The notes beneath the pieces were generated by a model. That model searched no databases and was not told the origin of the DNA. It was given only the letters and a program-made list of their open reading frames with translations. Made by a program: the position numbers and the translations under genes. A DNA stretch of 14,070 nt from Planctomycetota bacterium. GTDB lineage: Bacteria; Planctomycetota; Phycisphaerae; UBA1845; UTPLA1. The stretch spans positions 1 to 14,070 of the forward strand of contig JAPULF010000315.1 in the NCBI GenBank assembly GCA_027295245.1, given 5' to 3'. The number at the start of each line of letters is the position of its first letter. The stretch's first letter is position 1. This document shows, in pieces, positions 4,777 through 13,634 of the stretch.

Positions 4777-6567
4777 TCAGGCACTCGGCGGGGACGACGA
4801 TTGATCATCGGCGTCCGGAGCCGCCGCCGCCAACAACGCCACGTCCTGGATGGAATGTCCGCATAATCTTCCGATCGACACGGTCTCTGTAGGCTTGTCG
4901 GGGGCGTGCAATCGCCACACGAAAACCTGGTCGCGGTTTGCATTCACTCCGACGATGCAGTCGTCCGCCCCGAATCCCCATCTCACGGCCTGAGCGCAAC
5001 GATAGACTCCGTAATGAGCATCTCCGAGGACTTGCATATCCAGGTGCGATCGGCCGTCGGCAATCAGCAGCCGCGGGACGCCTCCGCCGCTCATCCAGCA
5101 AATAGAGCGAACCTTGTTTCGGCTCGGTCCTCGGATCGTCTCCATGGCGGTGAGATCCATCAGTGGCCATCGCACCACGCGCCCGTCGCCCAGACCGGCA
5201 ATGACAAAACCGTCGCAGATAGTTGATGTTGCAATTACATCCGGGGCATGGATGGTACACGGCGGCTCGTCGGAGTCGGGGCGCCAACCGATGAGCCGAT
5301 CGTCCACGCTGAACCAGAGCCGCCCGCTGTCCTCCGATTGCACATCGCGAACCGTACTCGCCCCTTCGGTAAGGTCGGCCAGGCACAGTTCCTGGTCCTC
5401 GGGGGCCCCGATGCGCCAGGAGACCAACCCGATCTCGGAGTGTGTCGCAAAGAGACGTTCGCCTATAATTGATGCGGCATTGAATCCGCCGCGAACGGCC
5501 GTCGATTCCTCGCAGGCATAGGTGTCGCGCGGACCCTCGCCGATATCGACGACGTGAATACCGCGGGACGCCCCGACCAGAATCGTCCGCGTATCGCCGG
5601 CTTGGGCGACGCGAACGGAACGAAGTCCACCGACCGGCGAGTCGAGCGGAAGTCGACGAACGGGTTCGCCGAGCTTCGACGGGTCGAGCCAAAGCAACTC
5701 ATTACCCGCGACGACCAGGATCGCTTCGGTGCGGACGGTGGATTCATTCGAGGCAGCCAGGGCAAGGTACAACTCGCCGCGCTCCGACGCACTGAACGTC
5801 TGCAACAACGACGCGACACCGACACCGTCATTGCGTTCCGCCAGTGCCCGGGCCTTCGAAAGGACATCCTGGAGTTGCGACAGATGGGCCCTCTTTGCCT
5901 CGACGGAGGCGCTGCGAAGTTGGGCATCGGCCTCGAGCCGCTGCCGTCGCAAGGCCGCGGTGGATTCCATCCGCCGGGACTCGGTGAACGCCGGGGACGC
6001 GAACGTGACGCGCGGGTCCGGTCCCAGCGCCAGGCCGGACGCGAAGCCCACCGGCTTGAATCGCTCGTCGAGGACGGCGTCGAATTTATCCCAGGTCGTC
6101 GCTGCGGACAAATCGGCCGCGGATCGGGTTCTCGAAAATTCGGTGAGCGCCGAGCGCACCGGCTCTTCACAGAACTTGCGAATGCGCCCAATATCGACGC
6201 GGCTGCCGCTGCCCAAAAGCACCTTTCGCAGCAGTTCCAGCTCGGACCGCTCCGGCACGACGCAGATCGTCAATTCGACCGTCGCCGAGAAATCGTAGCC
6301 GTCCTCGGATCTGAGACTCGGGACGTCATAGTGCAAGTCGACCGGCGTTGTTCGGACGAAAAGTATTTCCGACGCTCCATCGGCCTCGACCGTGCCGCCG
6401 CCCGGCACGTGATGGGCCTGCCCGCCCCGTGCCCGGACGAGCGCGGCGCACGCCGGCGGGAGAGCGACCCGGCGTCGCATCAGCGAGAAGACGTCATCGG
6501 ATCGAACGAGCTGCGCGATCGTCTCCGGCTGCCGGCCGAACTTCTCAATGTCAAACTGAATCGACAT
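4777..6567 (-). CDS. SPFH/Band 7-like protein with C-terminal beta-propeller
   Basis: The 596-residue product is not a standard family member, so domains are read from pattern. Residues ~40-190 resemble an SPFH (Band 7/stomatin-prohibitin) domain: ILFVRTTPVDLHYDVPSL, then YDFSATVELTICVVPERSEL, then a helical region with RKFCEEPVRSALTEF. Residues ~195-245 are charged and Ala-rich (SRRMESTAALRRQRLEADAQ), predicted as coiled coil, as commonly follows SPFH domains. Residues ~270-590 consist of repeated short strands (LLVVAGNELLWLD-like, LVGASRGIHVVDIG, VIAGLGDGRVVRWPL, VFVWRLHAPDKP) typical of a WD40-like propeller. There is no signal peptide or clear transmembrane helix, unlike most SPFH proteins. 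It follows the Vps4-like gene by 25 bases with GGAG upstream, so it is probably co-translated. A scaffold role at the membrane or for the ATPase is inference. It ends 25 bases from the convergent selenoprotein gene. Confidence 0.65.
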   Translation of the reverse strand: MSIQFDIEKFGRQPETIAQLVRSDDVFSLMRRRVALPPACAALVRARGGQAHHVPGGGTVEADGASEILFVRTTPVDLHYDVPSLRSEDGYDFSATVELTICVVPERSELELLRKVLLGSGSRVDIGRIRKFCEEPVRSALTEFSRTRSAADLSAATTWDKFDAVLDERFKPVGFASGLALGPDPRVTFASPAFTESRRMESTAALRRQRLEADAQLRSASVEAKRAHLSQLQDVLSKARALAERNDGVGVASLLQTFSASERGELYLALAASNESTVRTEAILVVAGNELLWLDPSKLGEPVRRLPLDSPVGGLRSVRVAQAGDTRTILVGASRGIHVVDIGEGPRDTYACEESTAVRGGFNAASIIGERLFATHSEIGLVSWRIGAPEDQELCLADLTEGASTVRDVQSEDSGRLWFSVDDRLIGWRPDSDEPPCTIHAPDVIATSTICDGFVIAGLGDGRVVRWPLMDLTAMETIRGPSRNKVRSICWMSGGGVPRLLIADGRSHLDMQVLGDAHYGVYRCAQAVRWGFGADDCIVGVNANRDQVFVWRLHAPDKPTETVSIGRLCGHSIQDVALLAAAAPDADDQSSSPPSA

Positions 6568-6592
6568 GATTCTGGACGCTCCGCTCGATGCC

Positions 6593-7714
6593 TTAATTCC
6601 TGGACGCGAACTCCTCGTAACGCACCAGGTCCTTCTTTTGCACTGACGGCGGCATCGATTCGATGACGCCGAGCAGGTCAGCCATGCCGATCGGGCGCGG
6701 CTCCGAGCCCGTGATCGCCTCCATGAACGGCATTGTGGCCGCCTTTTGGGCAACCGCCTTCACGTCCGCGCCGCTGTATCCGTCGAGACGGCGCACCAAC
6801 TCGCCGAAATCCACGTCCGGGGCGAGCGGCCGCTTCCCGCAGTAGATCTCCAGCAGCCGATGTCTTGCGGGCTCGTCCGGCAGCGGGACGTAAACCTTCG
6901 AATCGAATCGCCCCGGCCGCATGACCGCGGCGTCGAGGGCCCACGGCTCGTTGGTCGCCCCGACGAACAGCAGGGGTTTGGAATCCGAACTCCTGTCAAA
7001 ACCCTCGAGTTCCTGAAGGATCTGCGGGACGACCCGTGTCATCACGCTGCTCTGCGAGCTTCGTCTCGCCGGAACCAGGGCCTCGACTTCGTCTATGAAG
7101 ATAATAGCGCTGTCCTCTTCCTTGGCGGCGGAAAACAGCTTCCGGATGTTCTGTTCCGCCTCTCCGACCCATTTGCTCAGCACGTGGGCCGGCGAGATGA
7201 CGAACATGGTCGCGTCGATCTCGTGGGCGATCGCCTTGGCGATCATGGTCTTGCCGGTGCCCGGAGGGCCGTACAACAGCAGGCCCCCGCCGGTGGCGAT
7301 GTGGTACCGGGCGGCAAGGTCCGGATGGCTGAACGGGTAGATCATCTTCATCCGGATTTCCTGTTTGACGTCATCCAATCCGGCGATGTCGTCGAACCCG
7401 ATGTCTGGTTTCTCCCGGACGATCCAGTCAGACGCCTTGGCCCCGCTGTCATCCGAATCCTTTTCGGCGGTCCGACCCCGGCCGGCCTTTTTCTCCACCG
7501 CCTTCTCGTCGCACTTGCCCGCAAATTCGATCAGCTCGGCTGCCATCGCCTTGCGCCGCTGGCGCCGGGCGGCGTCCTGGGTCTCGGCGGCGATCTTGAT
7601 CATGGCGTCGGCGGCCTGCATGAGGTAGGGCTTGGCGGCGCCGTAGTCGCCGGACTTGTAGGCGGCGAGTCCGCGGTCCTTGAGTCGCTCGAAGGTATTT
7701 AGACTTACGGTCAT
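6593..7714 (-). CDS. Vps4-like AAA ATPase with N-terminal MIT-like domain
   Basis: The 373-residue protein has the two-part layout of Vps4, the ATPase that disassembles ESCRT-III filaments. Residues ~5-75 form a predicted three-helix bundle like a MIT domain (GLAAYKSGDYGAAKPYLMQA, then KAMAAELIEFAGKCDEKA), matching the AxxxxxxxYxxALxxYxxA pattern. A charged linker (76-97) leads into one AAA module. It contains Walker A GPPGTGKT (149-156), pore loop SKWVGEAE (180-187), Walker B IIFIDE (204-209), sensor GATNEPWALD (252-261), the MRPGRFD arginine-finger region (265-271) and YSGAD (313-317). The KWxGE pore loop and the TNxPWxLD sequence are hallmarks of the Vps4/katanin/spastin clade. The ending (MADLLGVIESMPPSV, then DLVRYEEF) matches the Vps4 C-terminal helix, but the Vps4 beta-domain insertion appears missing. 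Its gene lies directly downstream of a CHMP2-like ESCRT-III gene. No good ribosome site precedes the ATG at 7714. An FtsH- or p97-type AAA protein is unlikely. Confidence 0.85.
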   Translation of the reverse strand: MTVSLNTFERLKDRGLAAYKSGDYGAAKPYLMQAADAMIKIAAETQDAARRQRRKAMAAELIEFAGKCDEKAVEKKAGRGRTAEKDSDDSGAKASDWIVREKPDIGFDDIAGLDDVKQEIRMKMIYPFSHPDLAARYHIATGGGLLLYGPPGTGKTMIAKAIAHEIDATMFVISPAHVLSKWVGEAEQNIRKLFSAAKEEDSAIIFIDEVEALVPARRSSQSSVMTRVVPQILQELEGFDRSSDSKPLLFVGATNEPWALDAAVMRPGRFDSKVYVPLPDEPARHRLLEIYCGKRPLAPDVDFGELVRRLDGYSGADVKAVAQKAATMPFMEAITGSEPRPIGMADLLGVIESMPPSVQKKDLVRYEEFASRN

Positions 7715-7797
7715 ATTGAGTCGTTGTCAGGTTTCAATCGTCGGTGCTCAAGACACTCGCCAGCGAGCGAATGGAGATTATTGCCGCATACGAAACC

Positions 7798-7820
7798 CCC
7801 CGCACCTGTAATGGTCGGGG
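7798..7820 (-). terminator. Possible weak terminator or attenuator hairpin before the Vps4-like gene
   Basis: On the minus strand CCCCGACC and GGTGCGGGG pair (8 bp with one bulged G) around an ATTACA loop, followed by GG and only three T residues. It lies in the 115-base gap between the CHMP2-like gene and the Vps4-like gene. The poor T-run makes full termination doubtful; partial read-through that sets the ratio of filament subunit to ATPase, or an mRNA processing site, would fit equally well. Confidence 0.3.
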
Positions 7821-7830
7821 CTCCCGCACC

Positions 7831-8439
7831 CTACTTGCTTTCCTTGGCGCCTTTTTCCTTCACCGCATTCAACTCCGCCCGGAGCGCCTCCAAGTCGTCC
7901 ATGTCCTTGCTGTGTTCGGCCTCGGCTTCTGCCTCGATCATCGCGTCGATTTCCTCTTCGGTCACTACCTCGGCGGGCGTTTCGGAGGTGTCGCTGGCGG
8001 CCATGTCCTCGACGGTTTCGAGGAACATCGACATTCGCTCCTCCATGCTCTGCGACTGGACCATGGCCTTTTCCCAATCCATTTGCGTTCTGGTCAGGTC
8101 CGTTTCGCTGAACATTCGACCGATCTCGTTGGCCATGGTGCCCATCGCCTGGGCGAAATCGGTCGAGGCCTCGGCCTGCCGCTTGATGATCAGGGCGTTC
8201 TTCACCGCCAGAAGCTGGCGCTCCAGCATCTTCTTGACGGTGGCGGTCTTCTTCAGAGAGTTGCGGATGAAGACGTATTGGGATTGGTCGCCGATCTCCT
8301 TAGCCCGCCGGGCGTTCTTGATGAACTCATCCGTGAACTTGTTCTGCTCGGAGATCGACTTCTCGATGCGCCGGATTCCCTGGCGGATCTTGATGTCCCG
8401 CTCGATGCGCCGCTCTTCCGCTGACTTGAACAGACTCAT
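7831..8439 (-). CDS. ESCRT-III-like protein, CHMP2/Vps2 type, with MIM1-like C-terminus
   Basis: The 202-residue protein is almost wholly helical, basic in the first half and strongly acidic in the last third, as in eukaryotic and archaeal ESCRT-III subunits. Residues ~5-90 form a long helical hairpin (RRIEKSISEQNKFTDEFIKN, then VFIRNSLKKTATVKKMLERQ). Residues 95-147 (DFAQAMGTMANEIGRMF, MDWEKAMVQSQSMEERM) align in pattern with the human CHMP2A stretch MAQAMKGVTKAMGTMNRQL and its following MMEFERQAEIM. Residues ~159-175 are the acidic region. Residues 182-194 (DLEALRAELNAVK) resemble a MIM1 helix, the part of CHMP1-3 proteins that binds the Vps4 MIT domain; the hydrophobic spacing fits, but the usual Arg is Glu. 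The ATG at 8439 has GAGG seven bases upstream. The next gene encodes the Vps4-like ATPase. A PspA/Vipp1 relative is the main alternative, but PspA proteins lack such an acidic MIM tail. Filament assembly on membranes is inferred. Confidence 0.77.
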   Translation of the reverse strand: MSLFKSAEERRIERDIKIRQGIRRIEKSISEQNKFTDEFIKNARRAKEIGDQSQYVFIRNSLKKTATVKKMLERQLLAVKNALIIKRQAEASTDFAQAMGTMANEIGRMFSETDLTRTQMDWEKAMVQSQSMEERMSMFLETVEDMAASDTSETPAEVVTEEEIDAMIEAEAEAEHSKDMDDLEALRAELNAVKEKGAKESK

Positions 8440-8495
8440 GGGAGGCCCTCTTCAAAACTCCTCGCAACCGGCGACTCTCGCCGATCGCCGCTGGA

Positions 8496-8687
8496 TCACT
8501 CTTCCGGTATCGCCAGCCAGCAGATGACATATACCAGGATTCCGCAAAACGCCGTCGCCACCGAAAGCACGACATAGAGCAGTCGGGCAAGCGTGGGGTC
8601 CATCCCCAGATACTCCGCGAATCCACCGACCACGCCGCCGATCATCCGATGACGTCGCGATCTACGCAAAATCCTGCTCGTGTGCAT
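8496..8687 (-). CDS. PspC-domain membrane protein
   Basis: The 63-residue protein is essentially one PspC domain: a basic start (LRRSRRHRM), the signature IGGVVGGFAEYLGMDPTLAR, then a hydrophobic stretch (LLYVVLSVATAFCGILVYVI) and the typical ending CWLAIPEE. In the phage-shock response PspC sits in the inner membrane and with PspB senses envelope stress, recruiting PspA, which belongs to the ESCRT-III superfamily. Here it lies directly upstream of the CHMP2-like gene, and no PspA is present in the window. The start is firm: GGAGG lies eight bases before the ATG and overlaps the stop region of the preceding gene, from which it is separated by three bases, so translational coupling is likely. 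Recruiting one of the ESCRT-III-like proteins to the membrane is an inference from this arrangement. Confidence 0.88.
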   Translation of the reverse strand: MHTSRILRRSRRHRMIGGVVGGFAEYLGMDPTLARLLYVVLSVATAFCGILVYVICWLAIPEE

Positions 8688-8690
8688 TGC

Positions 8691-9509
8691 CTAATCCTCC
8701 GCGAGTGCCCGACGGCCGGGTGACGCCTCGCGACGCGAGCCTACTTCTTCGTCGTCGCCGTCATCCATTACCGCCGGTGTTTCGCTTGCTGTGTCCTCGC
8801 TCGGTTTGTCGTCTGCGCCCCGATTCGGCGATTCATCGAGTCCGGTCGCTGCCCGCGAATCCGCAACCGTGTCCTCATCCGCACCGGCATCGGATTCGGA
8901 TTCGAGATCGGGCTCTACATCTACAGCCGCCAATTCGTTTTCCGAGGGCGGCTCAGACACCCCGTCCGGTACATCTTCCCGCTCGACCACAACCACTGGC
9001 ATCAACTCCCTCGATGCTTCAGGCTCATTCGACTCGCCCACGGTCCGCGACCGCGTGGCTTCCGCCGCCGTCAGGCTCTCTCCGCATTGGCCGCAGTAGC
9101 GGGCCGTCATGTTTCGCACTGCCGATGAGCAACGATGGCAAATCGGCGGGCACTCGCACGAATACGCACGTTCATCCTCCAAATAGGAACGTAATTCGTA
9201 CGCGAGCTGCACGCTCTTGCGATGTGAGCCGATGTCCATAGCCACAGTTGTCTTTCCGCGTCTCGACTTCAGTTCGATGTCGATCCGGGGCCGCTGATCG
9301 ACGTCGAAGACGCGCCGAAACATGGCTACGACTCTGGTCACGGGTGTGGTCGGCCGGTGGCGGGCCGACTGGGGTAGATCCTGGGTCTCCAGTCGTTGAC
9401 CGTCCAGCCACCAAGCGTTGAAAAGCCGGTATTCCCGTCGGGCGGCGAACTGCAGGATGGCCCCCTGCACTTCCGACTTTTTCCGATCGACGGTCACTTC
9501 CATCGCCAT
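8691..9509 (-). CDS. Zinc-ribbon protein with long acidic tail, function unknown
   Basis: I do not recognise this family as a whole. The 272-residue protein starts with a compact region of about 110 residues (VTVDRKKSEVQGAILQFAAR, then TRVVAMFRRVFDV, RIDIELKSRRGKTTVAMDIG) that looks like mixed alpha/beta. A zinc ribbon with Cys124/Cys127 (CHRC) and Cys139/Cys142 (CGQC) follows. Residues ~150-272 are low-complexity, rich in Glu, Asp, Ser and Pro, and probably disordered. The start is ATG 9509, preceded by GGAG at eight bases; an upstream extension to 9626 would overlap the preceding gene and is rejected. A second in-frame ATG lies at 9503. Its place between two ESCRT-III-like genes and directly before pspC suggests an adaptor role in the same system, which is inference only. 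Confidence 0.65.
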   Translation of the reverse strand: MAMEVTVDRKKSEVQGAILQFAARREYRLFNAWWLDGQRLETQDLPQSARHRPTTPVTRVVAMFRRVFDVDQRPRIDIELKSRRGKTTVAMDIGSHRKSVQLAYELRSYLEDERAYSCECPPICHRCSSAVRNMTARYCGQCGESLTAAEATRSRTVGESNEPEASRELMPVVVVEREDVPDGVSEPPSENELAAVDVEPDLESESDAGADEDTVADSRAATGLDESPNRGADDKPSEDTASETPAVMDDGDDEEVGSRREASPGRRALAED

Positions 9510-9552
9510 TCTGCCGGCTCCATGCGCGTCGAAGGGCTCGGGCGGCGTCTTC

Positions 9553-10158
9553 TTACGCCCCCTCGGCCGCTTGATGACGCTCTCGCACGCGGCGGTCCGC
9601 TTCATCGAAGGCCTGCGCCGAGTCACTGATCAGACCGGTATCCATCTGGTCCCAGACATCCAGAAGCTGCTGGCTGCCCGGCGTCAATATGGATTCAGTC
9701 TCGCCCGCGCCGATCTGAAGCATCGAGTCGAGGCGGTCCTGGTACATCTCCGTCGTGATCGACTCGTTCTCGATCATCTTCTCGAGGGCGACCAAGTCAC
9801 GTTCCGTGATCATGCCGATCTTGCTGCCCATCGCCTTGGCCTTGTCCGCGTTCTCTCGAAGCATCCGCATCCGCGTGACGGTCAGGGCCTCCTTGCTGCG
9901 GATGCCCAGTTGGCGGCTGGTCATCAACTGCTCGGTCGTCTTGAGATCGAACTCCTGGGCCAGGACGCGCCGCACCTCCGGTGTCGTCTCATTCCGACCG
10001 CGCTCGAAGATTTCCTGCTTCTTTCCGGCCAGATCGCCAATCCGCTTCAGAAGCTGGTCGCGATCGCGCTGCAGCAGCAACTCCTGCTTGCGCAGCTCCG
10101 CCCGCGTCATCTGCGACAACGACTTGCTCTTCTTGGTCAACCAGTCAAAGAGACCCAT
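9553..10158 (-). CDS. ESCRT-III-like coiled-coil protein (second subunit)
   Basis: The 201-residue, all-helical protein begins MGLFDWLTKK, a short amphipathic start much like that of CHMP3 (MGLFGKTQEK) and of PspA/Vipp1, where this segment contacts membranes. Residues ~17-55 form a first basic helix (ELRKQELLLQRDRDQLLKRI). Residues 60-115 form a second (EVRRVLAQEFDLKTTEQLMT, then MRMLRENADKAKAMGSKIGM). The pattern, including VLAQEF where CHMP3 has VLAKEM, resembles the ESCRT-III core hairpin. Residues ~118-150 (LVALEKMIENESITTEMYQD) may be the next helices. The C-terminal part is acidic but I see no clear MIM motif. Ribosome binding upstream of the ATG is weak. It lies 81 bases after the winged-helix ESCRT-III gene. 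The family assignment rests on helical pattern and context, so a generic coiled-coil protein remains possible. Confidence 0.6.
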   Translation of the reverse strand: MGLFDWLTKKSKSLSQMTRAELRKQELLLQRDRDQLLKRIGDLAGKKQEIFERGRNETTPEVRRVLAQEFDLKTTEQLMTSRQLGIRSKEALTVTRMRMLRENADKAKAMGSKIGMITERDLVALEKMIENESITTEMYQDRLDSMLQIGAGETESILTPGSQQLLDVWDQMDTGLISDSAQAFDEADRRVRERHQAAEGA

Positions 10159-10239
10159 GTATCAATCCAATCGAAAACCGCGAATGGCTAAGCAAGACGG
10201 CCCTTGTCGTCGCCGCTCGTGCCTCACGGGGCGCGTCCG

Positions 10240-11646
10240 CTACTCCGCCTGGGCCTGTCCGCGCTCCCGTCGGCCGGACTCGGTCTCGCGGGGCGCGGCT
10301 TCGGACGACGATGCCTTCGCCGATCCGCTTCCCTCGGAGGATTCGCCTTCCAGCTCGCGTAGAATCGCCGCCTCGTCGTCCGAAATCGACGTCTCCGCCA
10401 TGTTGACTTCCAGACTGCTCACAAGATCGTCGCTGGCGCTCAAGTCCTCCAGGATCTGCTCCGCGTTGACCGCCGCCTCCGTCAACTCCTCGCCGGTCGG
10501 CAACTGCGCCACCGTGCCCGTCTGGGCCAACTCCAGATTGTGAATGTGCGTGCTGATCACGTTGATCTGCTTGCTGAGGATGGACGCGCTCGTATTGACG
10601 CGCGAAATGTCCTTTCGCAAACGCGAAATCTGACCGGCGATACGGCGTTTCGCCACGCCCACCTTCGTCGCCTTGCCCTCGTCGCGGAGTTGCCCTTCCT
10701 TCTTCTCGAGCTTCGAAATGTCCGTGTAAAGACGATCCAACCGGCCGCTCAGCGACGCCCGGCGCTCCGACAATACGTTGATCTTAGTCGCCTCTTCTCC
10801 TTCCTTCGAGAAGAGACTCTTGACCCATTCCGACAAAGACATGGAACCGTCCTCCCTGCCGGACGCGACCGGCGCCCCGCGGAATAGCATCATTTCCCCG
10901 GATCGTTTCGAGACCCGCAACTCCGGATCGGCCTTCTCGACGACATCGAAGGCCTGTTCCACAACCGATTGGGGAAGGTCCAGACGCTCTGCAACACTGC
11001 GGGCGGAAACGCTGCCGGTCAGAAGATCGGTGCTGCGCTCCTCCAGTTCCTGGCGAACCCGACCGATTTTCTGGCCGATCTGTTCCGGATCAAACAGCTT
11101 GCAGAGTTTGGCATCGTGCGTGCCCAGCCCCTTTGAAATCCGCCATCCGCCGTCTTCACGGGGCTCAATCAAAACGAGCCGGACGCCCGAAATCTGAGGT
11201 GGAGAATTCCAGACTTCTTCCTCGAAGCCGCCCGGGCTACAAACGCCGATCAAGTGCGGCGCCTTGTTCTTCGTTTTCAGAGACTCCACGTGCCGCATCA
11301 GCTCGGACATCGAAACCGGCGGGGCCGGCTCGTCCGTTTCCAACAGGGGTCCCGGCGGCGCAAGCACCGACGCGATAGTCACGCTCTTGACGCGCTTCCC
11401 GAAGAGCCATCGCCGATCGAGACCGCGCATCGTGAATCCGTACCCGTGCGGCATCCGGCCGTATCGTTCGCGATCGTAAATCCGGCGGTCCACCATGGCG
11501 GCCCGAACCGCCTCGGCGGAATCATGCTCTTCCCGCTCGAACCGCGACCCGCCCAAAAGCGTCCCCCCTGCCTCGGCCAGGTTGGCCCGCACACCGGCCA
11601 TGTATTCGGACTCTACCTCGCACGCATATTCGGATGCCGTTTTCAT
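10240..11646 (-). CDS. Winged-helix plus ESCRT-III-like protein (CHMP7/CdvB-like layout)
   Basis: The 468-residue protein seems to have three parts. Residues ~1-175 form an alpha/beta domain I cannot name (KAPHLIGVCSPGGFEEEVW, then GVRLVLIEPREDGGWRIS). Residues ~196-256 look like a winged helix (SARSVAERLDLPQSVVEQAF, then strands ELRVSKRSGEMMLFRG). Residues ~270-432 resemble an ESCRT-III domain: an opening MSLSEWVKSLFSKEG, a basic helix LSERRASLSGRLDRLYTDIS, a second helix (KRRIAGQISRLRKDISRVNT), a link NLELAQTG, and acidic helices ending ISDDEAAILRELEGES. Winged helices joined to ESCRT-III domains occur in CHMP7 and archaeal CdvB, though in CdvB the order is reversed. The last 35 residues are Ser-rich and probably disordered, and could be a kinase target. 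It is preceded by a 178-base gap with no gene and a weak ribosome site, so an internal promoter is possible. Confidence 0.65.
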   Translation of the reverse strand: MKTASEYACEVESEYMAGVRANLAEAGGTLLGGSRFEREEHDSAEAVRAAMVDRRIYDRERYGRMPHGYGFTMRGLDRRWLFGKRVKSVTIASVLAPPGPLLETDEPAPPVSMSELMRHVESLKTKNKAPHLIGVCSPGGFEEEVWNSPPQISGVRLVLIEPREDGGWRISKGLGTHDAKLCKLFDPEQIGQKIGRVRQELEERSTDLLTGSVSARSVAERLDLPQSVVEQAFDVVEKADPELRVSKRSGEMMLFRGAPVASGREDGSMSLSEWVKSLFSKEGEEATKINVLSERRASLSGRLDRLYTDISKLEKKEGQLRDEGKATKVGVAKRRIAGQISRLRKDISRVNTSASILSKQINVISTHIHNLELAQTGTVAQLPTGEELTEAAVNAEQILEDLSASDDLVSSLEVNMAETSISDDEAAILRELEGESSEGSGSAKASSSEAAPRETESGRRERGQAQAE

Positions 11647-11824
11647 TCGTCCGGTTCCATCCGCAGGGACGATCCATCCATCCGGGCGCGGGCCCTCGCC
11701 GGCGCTTCACGAACACCACAGACCCCATCTTACACTTGTTGCGACCCGCCGACATATTGGGAGGCTGGCCGTCTGGGATCGGTCCGAAAACAAGCGATTC
11801 GTGGTTGCTCGGACCTGGGCCGGC

Positions 11825-12076
11825 CTAGGCCCGCTCCTTGCCGCAAAACCGGCAGAACCGACCGTGCGGGTAATTCGGTGACCGGCAACGCCTGCACACC
11901 CACGCATTCGGTACCGACCCCCAGGAGTCGTCGCCGAAGGCATCGTTGCGGCGCCTCTCCTGCAGGCTCTGGTTGCGTCGAAACGACCGGGTGATGGATC
12001 GCAGCGCGAAGATGGCGAACACCAGCGTGAATATGACGACAAAGACAGGCATCCCCATTGGCATCCAGTTTACCAT
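11825..12076 (-). CDS. Small one-helix membrane protein with zinc ribbon
   Basis: The 83-residue protein has a single hydrophobic helix at residues ~8-27 (GMPVFVVIFTLVFAIFALRS), a basic stretch (RSFRRNQSLQERRR) that should lie in the cytoplasm, and a C-terminal zinc ribbon with Cys61/Cys64 (CRRC) and Cys75/Cys78 (CRFC). I recognise no named family. It starts six bases after the kinase stop codon, so translation is probably coupled; ATG codons at 12064, 12058 and 12052 are other possible starts. The zinc ribbon resembles those on the kinase and on the 8691-9509 protein. Confidence 0.7.
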   Translation of the reverse strand: MVNWMPMGMPVFVVIFTLVFAIFALRSITRSFRRNQSLQERRRNDAFGDDSWGSVPNAWVCRRCRSPNYPHGRFCRFCGKERA

Positions 12077-12082
12077 GCCGCA

Positions 12083-13159
12083 TCAGCCCACACTCGCGGG
12101 CAACGACGACCCGCACGAGATACAGAAACGGTCACCCTTCTCGGGATAGGCCCCGCACGACGGACAGCGACGCGGATCCAATGCGATCTGCGTACCACAA
12201 AGGATACAGAAATTATCGTCCGCGGCGACATCGGCGCCGCATGACCCGCACACGCCTGAATCCGAACCCGCTACGCCGGGCAACGGGGGCGGTGACGGAA
12301 TCGCGCCATACGATCCCCCGCGAACAACGGGCGGCTTGCTCATGGTCTCGATCATGTTCAAGACCGCGGCCGCACTCGGGAATCGGCGCTCGCGACGGGT
12401 GTACAATCGCGAAAACACCGGATCTACCCAGGACGGCAGTCCTTCGCGAACGGAAGACGGCATGTCGCTTCCGCTCGGTCGTTCACCGGCCAACAATTCA
12501 AACAGCACGATGCCGACGGCATACAAGTCGGTTCGGGCGTCCGTGACGCCGCCGTCTCGTTGTTCGGGCGCCATGTAGGCGAGCGTACCCGAAATGCTCT
12601 TGCCCTCTTCGGACAGCAGGCTGCCCGACTGCATGATGGTCGAGGTTGTGATCTCACAGGCGCGGCCGAGGCCGAAGTCGGTAACTTTGACATCCGACAC
12701 GTCGATTTCCTCGGCGGGTTTCGATCCGCCGCCGACGATCAGCACGTTCGCCGGTTTGATATCGCGGTGAATCACGCCGTTGGCGTGCGAGTGGTCCAGG
12801 GCCCGGAGAATGCCGCACACGATTCGCTGGGCGGCCCGCAGGGGCATTCCGTTCGTATAGGAATCGACAAGTTCCCGAAGCGACGCACCGTCGACGAATT
12901 CCATGGCCAGGTAGGGCACATCGGCATACGGATCGAGCCCGATCGCCCGGACGATGTTGGGATGATTCAGGCCGTGGATCGTGACGCCTTCGCGCTGGAG
13001 ATTGCGAACGTATTGCGAGTCGGTGGGAACCTTGATGGCGACCAGCTTGTCCTTCCAGATATGGTGGTGGGCCTTCCACACCTGTCCAAAGCTGCCCGAA
13101 CCGACCTCGGCATCCAGGACGTATTCGCTGATGCGGTCGCCGACCTTCACCACGGACAT
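12083..13159 (-). CDS. Hanks-type Ser/Thr protein kinase with two C-terminal zinc ribbons
   Basis: The 358-residue protein has a complete kinase domain (~10-270): Gly-rich loop GSGSFG (20-25), ATP-binding Lys43 in VAIK, catalytic HRDIKPAN (131-138), DFG (161-163) and APE (197-199) with GTLAYM before it. All catalytic residues are present, so it should be active. After a Pro-rich linker (IPSPPPLPG) come two zinc ribbons: Cys304/307 with Cys318/321 and Cys332/335 with Cys346/349. There is no transmembrane helix or PASTA domain, so it is probably cytosolic and targeted by protein contacts. The start is supported by GAAGGG seven bases before the ATG. It overlaps none of its neighbours; the next gene follows after six bases. 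Phosphorylation of the ESCRT-III-like proteins downstream is an attractive but untested idea. Confidence 0.93.
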   Translation of the reverse strand: MSVVKVGDRISEYVLDAEVGSGSFGQVWKAHHHIWKDKLVAIKVPTDSQYVRNLQREGVTIHGLNHPNIVRAIGLDPYADVPYLAMEFVDGASLRELVDSYTNGMPLRAAQRIVCGILRALDHSHANGVIHRDIKPANVLIVGGGSKPAEEIDVSDVKVTDFGLGRACEITTSTIMQSGSLLSEEGKSISGTLAYMAPEQRDGGVTDARTDLYAVGIVLFELLAGERPSGSDMPSSVREGLPSWVDPVFSRLYTRRERRFPSAAAVLNMIETMSKPPVVRGGSYGAIPSPPPLPGVAGSDSGVCGSCGADVAADDNFCILCGTQIALDPRRCPSCGAYPEKGDRFCISCGSSLPASVG

Positions 13160-13182
13160 GGCAATTCCCTTCGGCCGCTTAA

Positions 13183-13197
13183 AACCGGCAGCCGGTT
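13183..13197 (-). terminator. Short inverted repeat with T-run at the end of the membrane-protein gene
   Basis: On the minus strand AACCGG and CCGGTT pair around CTG, followed by TTTT that partly overlaps the stem. It begins at the stop codon of the four-helix protein gene and lies 24 bases before the kinase start. The stem is only 6 bp, so it may cause partial termination or be an operator-like palindrome; full termination seems unlikely. Confidence 0.3.
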
Positions 13198-13634
13198 CAT
13201 GAGGTCTCCACGTGCCTGGCTAAAGACTCGCAGATTACAGAATTATACGCCCCGGCGGCGACGAAACCAAGCATCACGACGAACCAGGTGAAGCCTCCGG
13301 TGAAACCCCAATCCGCCAACCAAAACGCCAATAGGATGTCGATAGCACAAAACACTCCGATGATCGCTACGCTCACCATCCCGGCGATGTTCGCCGTCTG
13401 AAGCCTCGACTGAAACTGCAACAGCGGTCCCATGAAAAGATAGCTCGACCACGGAAGTCCGCCCACCAAAACGATCCAGATAAGCACTCGTTTGAGCACC
13501 CCGCCGATCGCCACGACCGTGTCCCAGTTTTGCCAGGTCCAGATTCCGCCGGCGACGACCGCCAGGAAAATGATCGCGGACGCCACCTTGGTACCGACGA
13601 ATTTCCCGATCTCGGCGAGGAACACGGTCACCAC
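13197..13634 (-). CDS. Four-helix integral membrane protein, function unknown
   Basis: I do not recognise this 145-residue protein. Four hydrophobic segments are clear at roughly residues 17-35 (VASAIIFLAVVAGGIWTW), 49-72, 82-108 and 114-134 (FTWFVVMLGFVAAGAY), joined by short loops. It should be an inner-membrane protein with few exposed residues. The start is uncertain: GTG codons at 13634, 13631 and 13625 are all in frame, with GGAG just upstream; spacing favours 13625 or 13631. It is the first gene after a plausible promoter, lies 37 bases before the kinase gene, and may be the membrane anchor of the cluster, which is inference. Confidence 0.7.
   Translation of the reverse strand: MVTVFLAEIGKFVGTKVASAIIFLAVVAGGIWTWQNWDTVVAIGGVLKRVLIWIVLVGGLPWSSYLFMGPLLQFQSRLQTANIAGMVSVAIIGVFCAIDILLAFWLADWGFTGGFTWFVVMLGFVAAGAYNSVICESLARHVETS

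Follow-up and report, generated by a model that had tools for sequence, protein, structure and literature searches.

A Planctomycetota operon that probably encodes an ESCRT-III/Vps4-type membrane-remodelling machine

This study examined the window, that is, the whole stretch of 14,070 nucleotides of contig JAPULF010000315.1 from a Planctomycetota bacterium, and the evidence suggests that an operon within it probably encodes a bacterial membrane-remodelling machine of the type built from endosomal sorting complex required for transport III (ESCRT-III) proteins and a Vps4 ATPase. The operon consists of ten minus-strand genes running from 13634 to 4777, all co-oriented over about 8.9 kb and separated by gaps of 3 to 178 bases under the assumed starts, which bears out the co-oriented cluster that a first-pass annotation of the bare sequence had described. 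The components expected of an ESCRT-III/Vps4 system are present: subunits for a filament, a partner with a winged helix, and an ATPase in which the Walker motifs are conserved and a MIT domain is probable. With a trio of predicted ESCRT-III fold and an ATPase whose top curated match is the archaeal CdvC, the carriers in which FtsZ was not found likely reshape membranes in this way. Five features of the operon are as follows.

10240..11646, minus strand: protein of 468 residues in which a predicted model shows an alpha/beta domain, then a winged helix, then an ESCRT-III domain
10351..10836, minus strand: predicted ESCRT-III domain of the 468-residue protein, comprising a short N-terminal helix, a helical hairpin and two more helices
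9553..10158, minus strand: helical protein of 201 residues, putative second ESCRT-III-like subunit by profile relation
7831..8439, minus strand: ESCRT-III protein of 202 residues, Snf7/CHMP type by profile and predicted fold, with a MIM1-like C-terminal tail
6593..7714, minus strand: ATPase of 373 residues with MIT-like, AAA and Vps4_C regions (NCBIfam, Pfam and trees)

The open frames lie where they had first been placed and are real genes, as judged by their homologs (1731 for the 202-residue product and 917 for the 201-residue product after clustering at 90% identity) and by the operon order, which recurs in other Planctomycetota loci. Among 80 named loci, the best 80 of 112 relatives from a single-pattern scan of genome contigs and many of them cut by contig ends, the 201-residue gene was present in 75, the 468-residue gene in 72 and the ATPase gene in 54.

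The helical proteins and their relation to ESCRT-III

By its profile matches and predicted fold, the 202-residue protein is an ESCRT-III relative of the Snf7/CHMP type and not of the PspA type. Using an alignment of 31 of the 35 homologs found, eight of nine matches to Protein Data Bank (PDB) profiles were ESCRT-III entries (E 0.005 to 0.39), and Pfam Snf7 found a match in 26 of 31 homologs (best 2.7e-6), against 3 for the family ranked after it. The alignment of the family to one CHMP3 sequence by hhalign gave E 2e-4 (prob 47, 46 columns), the same comparison with planctomycete PspA gave no signal (E 0.7), and PspA_IM30 was absent among the 25 of 49 Pfam families listed. The predicted model consists of helices at 7-49, 52-109, 116-148 and 161-201, and in structural comparison by VIA-align all four of 50 rows with a root-mean-square deviation of at most 2.4 Å over more than 100 residues were ESCRT-III.

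Several observations weigh against this assignment. The confidence of the model is middling, with a predicted local distance difference test score (pLDDT) of 68.6; its best VIA-align row is a bMERB domain, BAR domains score alike, and its Foldseek E-values exceed 0.1. The VIA-align Z values of both the 202- and the 468-residue models all lie below the level that the tool sets for helical bundles. The window's own protein, scanned alone, had no Snf7 match; the curated Snf7 cut-off was passed in 0/31 genomes and likewise in 0/14 controls, Sulfolobus included, and at the loose threshold used 9/14 control genomes, E. coli among them, matched too. No clear profile signal linked the 202-residue family to the other helical families.

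As Vipp1 chains also superpose on the 202- and 468-residue models and a PspC gene lies within the operon, the helical proteins could be read as PspA/Vipp1 paralogs, and the operon as a phage-shock operon in altered order to which an accessory ATPase belongs. We regard this as highly improbable. PspA_IM30 gave 0 matches at 1e-6 in the window's genome (3.13 Mb in 653 contigs, 75.5% complete), the hhalign comparison with planctomycete PspA was empty for all three helical families, the 202-residue family matches Snf7, and 23 genomes hold both the 202-residue protein and PspA. PspA paralogy was rejected on the missing PspA_IM30 match and the missing hhalign signal.

The C-terminal tail of the 202-residue protein was compared with the MIM1 motif, whose consensus is (D/E)xxLxxRLxxLR. 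Positions 186, 190 and 193 were hydrophobic in 30/30, 30/30 and 26/30 of the homologs with letters there, a spacing that we take to be that of MIM1. The MIM1-like pattern was found in 20 of 31 homolog tails (shuffled mean 1.3, maximum 5), and in the background in 28/1836 open frames, these being six-frame and not all genes, and in 7/155 of those with charged tails. In the 80 named loci, the hydrophobic triad was present in 76 of 81 tails; the pattern with its acidic residue was present in 2 of 81, a point against the main reading, and the tail encoded in the window shows nothing beyond the triad. In a portion of PMC7240154, Asgard ESCRT-III proteins are described with leucine-rich C-terminal motifs, some leucines being replaced by isoleucine, that are likened to MIM1.

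The 468-residue protein has a CHMP7-like layout that is predicted at high confidence: its AlphaFold2 model (pLDDT 87.7) comprises an alpha/beta domain at 1-183, a winged helix at 190-256 and an ESCRT-III domain at 271-432, the last with helices at 271-279, 285-326, 330-377, 385-413 and 423-432. As Foldseek with this model gave mostly winged-helix proteins, VIA-align served as a second look, and the ESCRT-III domain superposed on Snf7 (1.2 Å over 86 residues), CHMP1B (1.3 Å over 88) and CHMP3 (1.9 Å over 89). The seven top rows for the model were six ESCRT-III entries and Vipp1, but a Borrelia surface protein ties with them, and this counts against the fold assignment. By sequence, Snf7 was matched in Pfam by 3/59 members of the family, best 0.011. 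The winged-helix and ESCRT-III parts both had matches, and the likeness to CHMP7 is one of layout alone. In CHMP7, a single chain leads from a winged helix into ESCRT-III and has a second winged helix as well; in the 468-residue protein, an N-terminal alpha/beta domain stands in place of the second winged helix.

The 201-residue protein may be ESCRT-III-like by its profile relation to the ESCRT-III domain of the 468-residue family, the sole ground for this assignment (prob 93.9, E 1.5e-7, and again prob 93.3, E 2.7e-7). Its family gave nothing convincing against Pfam and the PDB, with no Snf7 among the 25 of 27 Pfam families listed. The same relation appeared in distant loci, in 17 of which the DNA separating the winged-helix gene from the gene that follows it was translated. 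Twelve of 13 picked frames formed a family matching the ESCRT-III domain of the 468-residue protein (177 columns, E 2.9e-11), and 14 of 18 formed a family matching the 201-residue family (179 columns, E 1.4e-9); neither matched Snf7 in Pfam. These families indicate that three helical proteins of such type seem usual in the distant loci. Thus, of the three ESCRT-III-like proteins named in the first-pass annotation, the 202-residue protein is upheld by sequence and fold, the C-terminal part of the 468-residue protein by its predicted fold, and the 201-residue protein by profile relation only. A placement in unrelated coiled-coil families, which had been set as the refutation, was not obtained, as the first two were placed with ESCRT-III and the third was linked to the second.

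The ATPase and its place among AAA proteins

The ATPase had been proposed as Vps4-like with a MIT-like domain. Its top NCBIfam match was CdvC (244 bits, 2e-72, residues 16-371, under the equivalog cut-off), followed by CDC48 with 228 bits, likewise under the cut-off. In Pfam, PF00004 (8.5e-40), the AAA lid and Vps4_C (PF09336, 6.5e-6, 26.5 bits vs 21.3) were over the cut-off, and Vps4_C was found in 17/28 homologs at E 0.01. Across the 28 aligned ATPases (of 43 homologs found), GPPGxGKT, D208, E209 and R269 are invariant. The AAA core contains Walker A and B, the motif KWVG and arginines, and we take KWVG for the pore loop and the arginines to play their usual roles.

The N-terminal region is likely MIT-like, judging from profile comparison. 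Its first 80 residues matched six Vps4 MIT rows over three helices among PDB profiles (E 0.03 to 0.6), and the alignment to the CdvC model, starting at residue 16, also speaks for a MIT domain. Against it, tetratricopeptide repeat (TPR) proteins, mostly over one hairpin, and some designed helical proteins score higher or alike, with designed TPR proteins heading the list; Pfam MIT was matched by 1/25 (E 0.29) vs 15/25 for TPR_2; and hhalign to one yeast MIT sequence gave no signal. The proposed MIT-like domain is thus likely, not proven.

Among the 28 aligned homologs, two ATPase types of 19 and 9 members were distinguished, and two trees were built, in which long branches were flagged. At the position of RRFxxRI in yeast Vps4 and CdvC, the window-type AAA domain reads RPGRFD. 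Also unfavourable to a Vps4-type machine, this domain formed its own branch outside the Vps4 clade in the best tree, with an approximately unbiased test value (p-AU) of 0.224 for inclusion. Given RPGRFD and the separate branch, the window's AAA domain can be neither assigned to the Vps4 clade nor removed from it. The outcome that had been named as a refutation, an ATPase outside that clade and without a MIT fold, was not obtained either. The second type, without GR and found beside the window type in several other families, grouped with yeast Vps4 and two archaeal chains (support 95/83, with a long-branch warning).

These features bear on a different reading, which denies the coiled-coil proteins an ESCRT-III nature. 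They would instead serve a Cdc48-like unfoldase as adaptors or substrates, and the SPFH and PspC proteins would tether that unfoldase to the membrane. RPGRFD is consistent with this reading, as are the top pairwise scores of the window's AAA domain, which went to VAT D2 and p97 D2 (the CdvC letters were compared without the domain start), and the resemblance of the N-terminal region to a TPR hairpin. Nevertheless, ESCRT-III matches concentrate in three tests (PDB profiles, Pfam Snf7 and VIA-align of the 468-residue protein), the whole-protein CdvC score is above that of CDC48, and the second ATPase of sister loci groups with Vps4/CdvC at 95/83, with long branches flagged; hence we consider this reading improbable.

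For the ESCRT-III/Vps4-type reading, gene adjacency is also informative. The ATPase gene adjoins ESCRT-III genes in 8/9 same-order loci and in 24/25 other loci, one of the 24 being cut by a contig end, and adjacency to ESCRT-III is listed as criterion ii for Vps4/CdvC-type ATPases in a section of PMC10936438. In some loci, two AAA ATPases flank or neighbour the 202-residue gene (e.g., L072, L073, L080, L084, L088, L096 and L097), one being of the window type and the other grouping with Vps4/CdvC.

Distribution, proposed mechanism and known systems

The 202-residue protein was found in 49/61 relatives, including 17/17 of the window's family, and in 54/294 genomes drawn from the phylum; many of the genomes behind these and the following FtsZ and PspA counts are incomplete. 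Of 38 fetched regions, 34 were counted, and L092-L095, which had been fetched around other weak Snf7 matches and contained none of the families, were left out. In the 25 distant loci (L071-L091 and L096-L099), the ATPase and the winged-helix protein were each present in 24. Relatives outside Planctomycetota were looked for by the single-pattern contig scan alone, and among the 80 loci one title reads Alphaproteobacteria and one "bacterium" only. Two whole-chromosome records (L106 and L129) have such a locus, which argues against contamination: CP030884.1 contains most of the set, reordered, and CP070718.1 contains the PspC, 202-residue, ATPase and SPFH genes within the stretch fetched. L105, L106, L108 and L160 show inversion or a changed order, either of the ATPase and SPFH genes or of whole operon blocks, which gives the operon the look of a composite of two modules. 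In the loci L076 (~8990-9960) and L077 (~8600-9750) of one family, a gene lies between the ATPase and 202-residue genes, and we take its product to resemble a lipopolysaccharide-kinase-type enzyme.

What the analysis shows is the order of the genes and its conservation, the relations by sequence and profile, and the predicted folds; polymerisation, membrane binding, ATP-driven disassembly and the cellular job are inferred. In the proposed mechanism, the three proteins with a predicted ESCRT-III fold would form polymers at the inner membrane. The 468-residue protein, held by its winged helix and N-terminal domain, would insert its short N-terminal helix and nucleate a filament, with which the 201- and 202-residue proteins would co-polymerise. 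The MIM1-like tail of the 202-residue protein may dock into the MIT-like domain of the ATPase, whose hexamer would thread and extract subunits and so pull filaments apart; the resulting change in filament shape would bend or cut the membrane. Anchoring of the assembly may fall to PspC, the small membrane proteins and the SPFH-propeller protein, and the kinase may act as its switch.

The most likely cellular job is to remodel and repair the cytoplasmic membrane when the envelope is under stress. This rests on two observations: partners such as PspC and SPFH/band-7 proteins are part of phage shock protein (PSP) systems, and PspA was not found in any member of the window's family (0/17). In the 61 relatives, PspA was found in 10, comprising 6/49 carriers and 4/12 non-carriers of the 202-residue protein. 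Across the phylum it was found in 76/294 genomes, comprising 23/54 carriers vs 53/240 non-carriers. The 23 carriers that also have PspA are a point against the proposal, in that the system is no simple PspA substitute. Mutual exclusion with PspA is thus true in the window's family and fails across the phylum.

Division is the main alternative to envelope repair. The operon would then be a cytokinetic engine working without FtsZ, a bacterial counterpart of Cdv in which the division site would be constricted by rings of ESCRT-III that the ATPase remodels; we hold this to be unlikely, though the least so of the alternatives weighed here, and give the same modest chance to the claim that planctomycetes of the window's order divide by a Cdv-like machine made up of three ESCRT-III subunits, a nucleator resembling CHMP7 and an ATPase resembling CdvC. 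FtsZ at E 1e-10 was found in 0/61 relatives, with 13/14 control genomes matched. Phycisphaerae are described in part of PMC6952346 as dividing in a binary-fission-like manner without FtsZ, the driving protein being asked for, and according to excerpts of PMC11796394 division in Sulfolobales likewise uses three ESCRT-III paralogs and one ATPase, with CdvA. On the other hand, 12/61 relatives and 240/294 phylum genomes have neither the 202-residue protein nor FtsZ (ten weak FtsZ-like matches excepted), and the PspC and SPFH partners point toward envelope stress. That most planctomycete genomes searched lack both FtsZ and the system argues against a general division role. In the phylum sample, 284/294 genomes had no FtsZ match at E 1e-10. 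The ten weak FtsZ-like matches (G040, G071, G110, G127, G128, G144, G175, G187, G239 and G291) were all under the FtsZ cut-off. Mutual exclusion with FtsZ was uninformative, with FtsZ-like matches in 10/294 genomes and in 0 of the 54 carriers.

The operon was compared with known systems. With archaeal ESCRT/Cdv systems, as covered in parts of PMC10936438, it shares ESCRT-III proteins, a partner with a winged helix and an AAA ATPase of probable MIT type, and some euryarchaeal loci there also contain a Ser/Thr kinase or an SPFH protein together with a zinc ribbon. It differs in its bacterial host, in the fusion of the winged helix to ESCRT-III and of SPFH to a propeller, in the PspC gene within the operon and in the separate branch that the window's AAA domain forms. 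The likeness to eukaryotic ESCRT-III/Vps4 lies in the ESCRT-III fold (predicted here), the spacing of the MIM1-like tail and the CHMP7-like succession of winged helix and ESCRT-III in one chain, which is a layout comparison alone; the sequences of the two are far apart. With bacterial PSP systems it shares PspC and the ESCRT-III superfamily, and SPFH/band-7 and PspC genes are noted in PSP loci in passages of PMC11237479; unlike in PspA/Vipp1 systems, the subunit appears to be of the Snf7 type, and a dedicated MIT-like AAA ATPase is present.

The first-pass annotation had also suggested that such a machine would be new for bacteria or little described. According to a 2024 survey (PMC10936438), systems that pair ESCRT-III with Vps4 are restricted to archaea and eukaryotes; the Planctomycetota operon would accordingly be a new bacterial variant. 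Bacterial Snf7-clade proteins near AAA+ ATPases are already in print, though not in the present combination in Planctomycetota. In extracts from PMC11237479, Vps4-like ATPases are reported in bacteria and Snf7-clade proteins are reported near AAA+ ATPases or beside ABC transporter genes; the operon resembles these cases, but in them the transfer of Vps4 goes with displacement of snf7, or Snf7 has ABC transporter genes as neighbours. Neither Planctomycetes nor Verrucomicrobia is mentioned in the main text of that paper, and a description of the operon was not found in the open-access literature, preprints and supplements being outside the scope. A conserved bacterial operon that combines Snf7-type ESCRT-III with a winged-helix partner and a CdvC-like ATPase would shift the limit set by the survey and would bear on the contributions of the last universal common ancestor or of early gene transfer. 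Its ATPase is a candidate driver of bacterial ESCRT-III polymers, a question left open for PspA/Vipp1 in what part of PMC8281802 covers, and the operon is a candidate for membrane remodelling or division in planctomycetes without FtsZ (PMC6952346, in part).

Partner genes and surroundings of the operon

The other genes of the operon are listed below.

13197..13634, minus strand: small multi-pass membrane protein of 145 residues, hydrophobic stretches between 9 and 136
12083..13159, minus strand: Ser/Thr protein kinase of 358 residues with two C-terminal zinc ribbons (Pfam)
11825..12076, minus strand: protein of 83 residues with one hydrophobic stretch (1-32) and a zinc-ribbon-like end
8691..9509, minus strand: zinc-ribbon protein with an acidic tail, start codon uncertain, open frame to 9626
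8496..8687, minus strand: PspC-family membrane protein of 63 residues (PF04024, 2.6e-23)
4777..6567, minus strand: protein of 596 residues with an SPFH-like N-terminal half and a beta-propeller C-terminal half

Pfam confirmed the first assignments of the AAA domain, of PspC and of the kinase with its zinc ribbons (PF00069 3e-39, PF13240 5.7e-10, PF12773 3.7e-9), the kinase gene being present in 64/80 loci. The 63-residue PspC (39/80 loci) also matched TIGR02978 at 1.8e-10, under the cut-off. The small membrane proteins that had been described are consistent with the hydrophobic stretches of the 145- and 83-residue proteins; the former had a weak ThrE_2 match (E 0.005, under the Pfam cut-off; 60/80 loci) and the latter a DZR match (E 0.014, under the cut-off; 50/80 loci). 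The zinc-ribbon protein had weak zinc-ribbon matches (best E 0.003), and its gene was found in 7/80 loci. As for the SPFH-propeller protein (46/80 loci), the propeller half was substantiated by matches to WD-type propellers in the PDB; the SPFH half is weak, with Band_7 in 5/16 homologs (best E 2.4e-4) and no match when the window's own protein was searched.

The operon flanks are bacterial, consisting of the rlmN end, tilS and a UDP-glucose dehydrogenase gene, as had been proposed for the first two. The closest homologs that carry a name also mark the host as a planctomycete. The bacterial SECIS of the same proposal was not found, an Rfam search of the window giving no family at gathering score. 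At 1781-2923 on the plus strand, the window also encodes a protein of 380 residues, without an NCBIfam match at 0.001, which we take to resemble an M29-type aminopeptidase.

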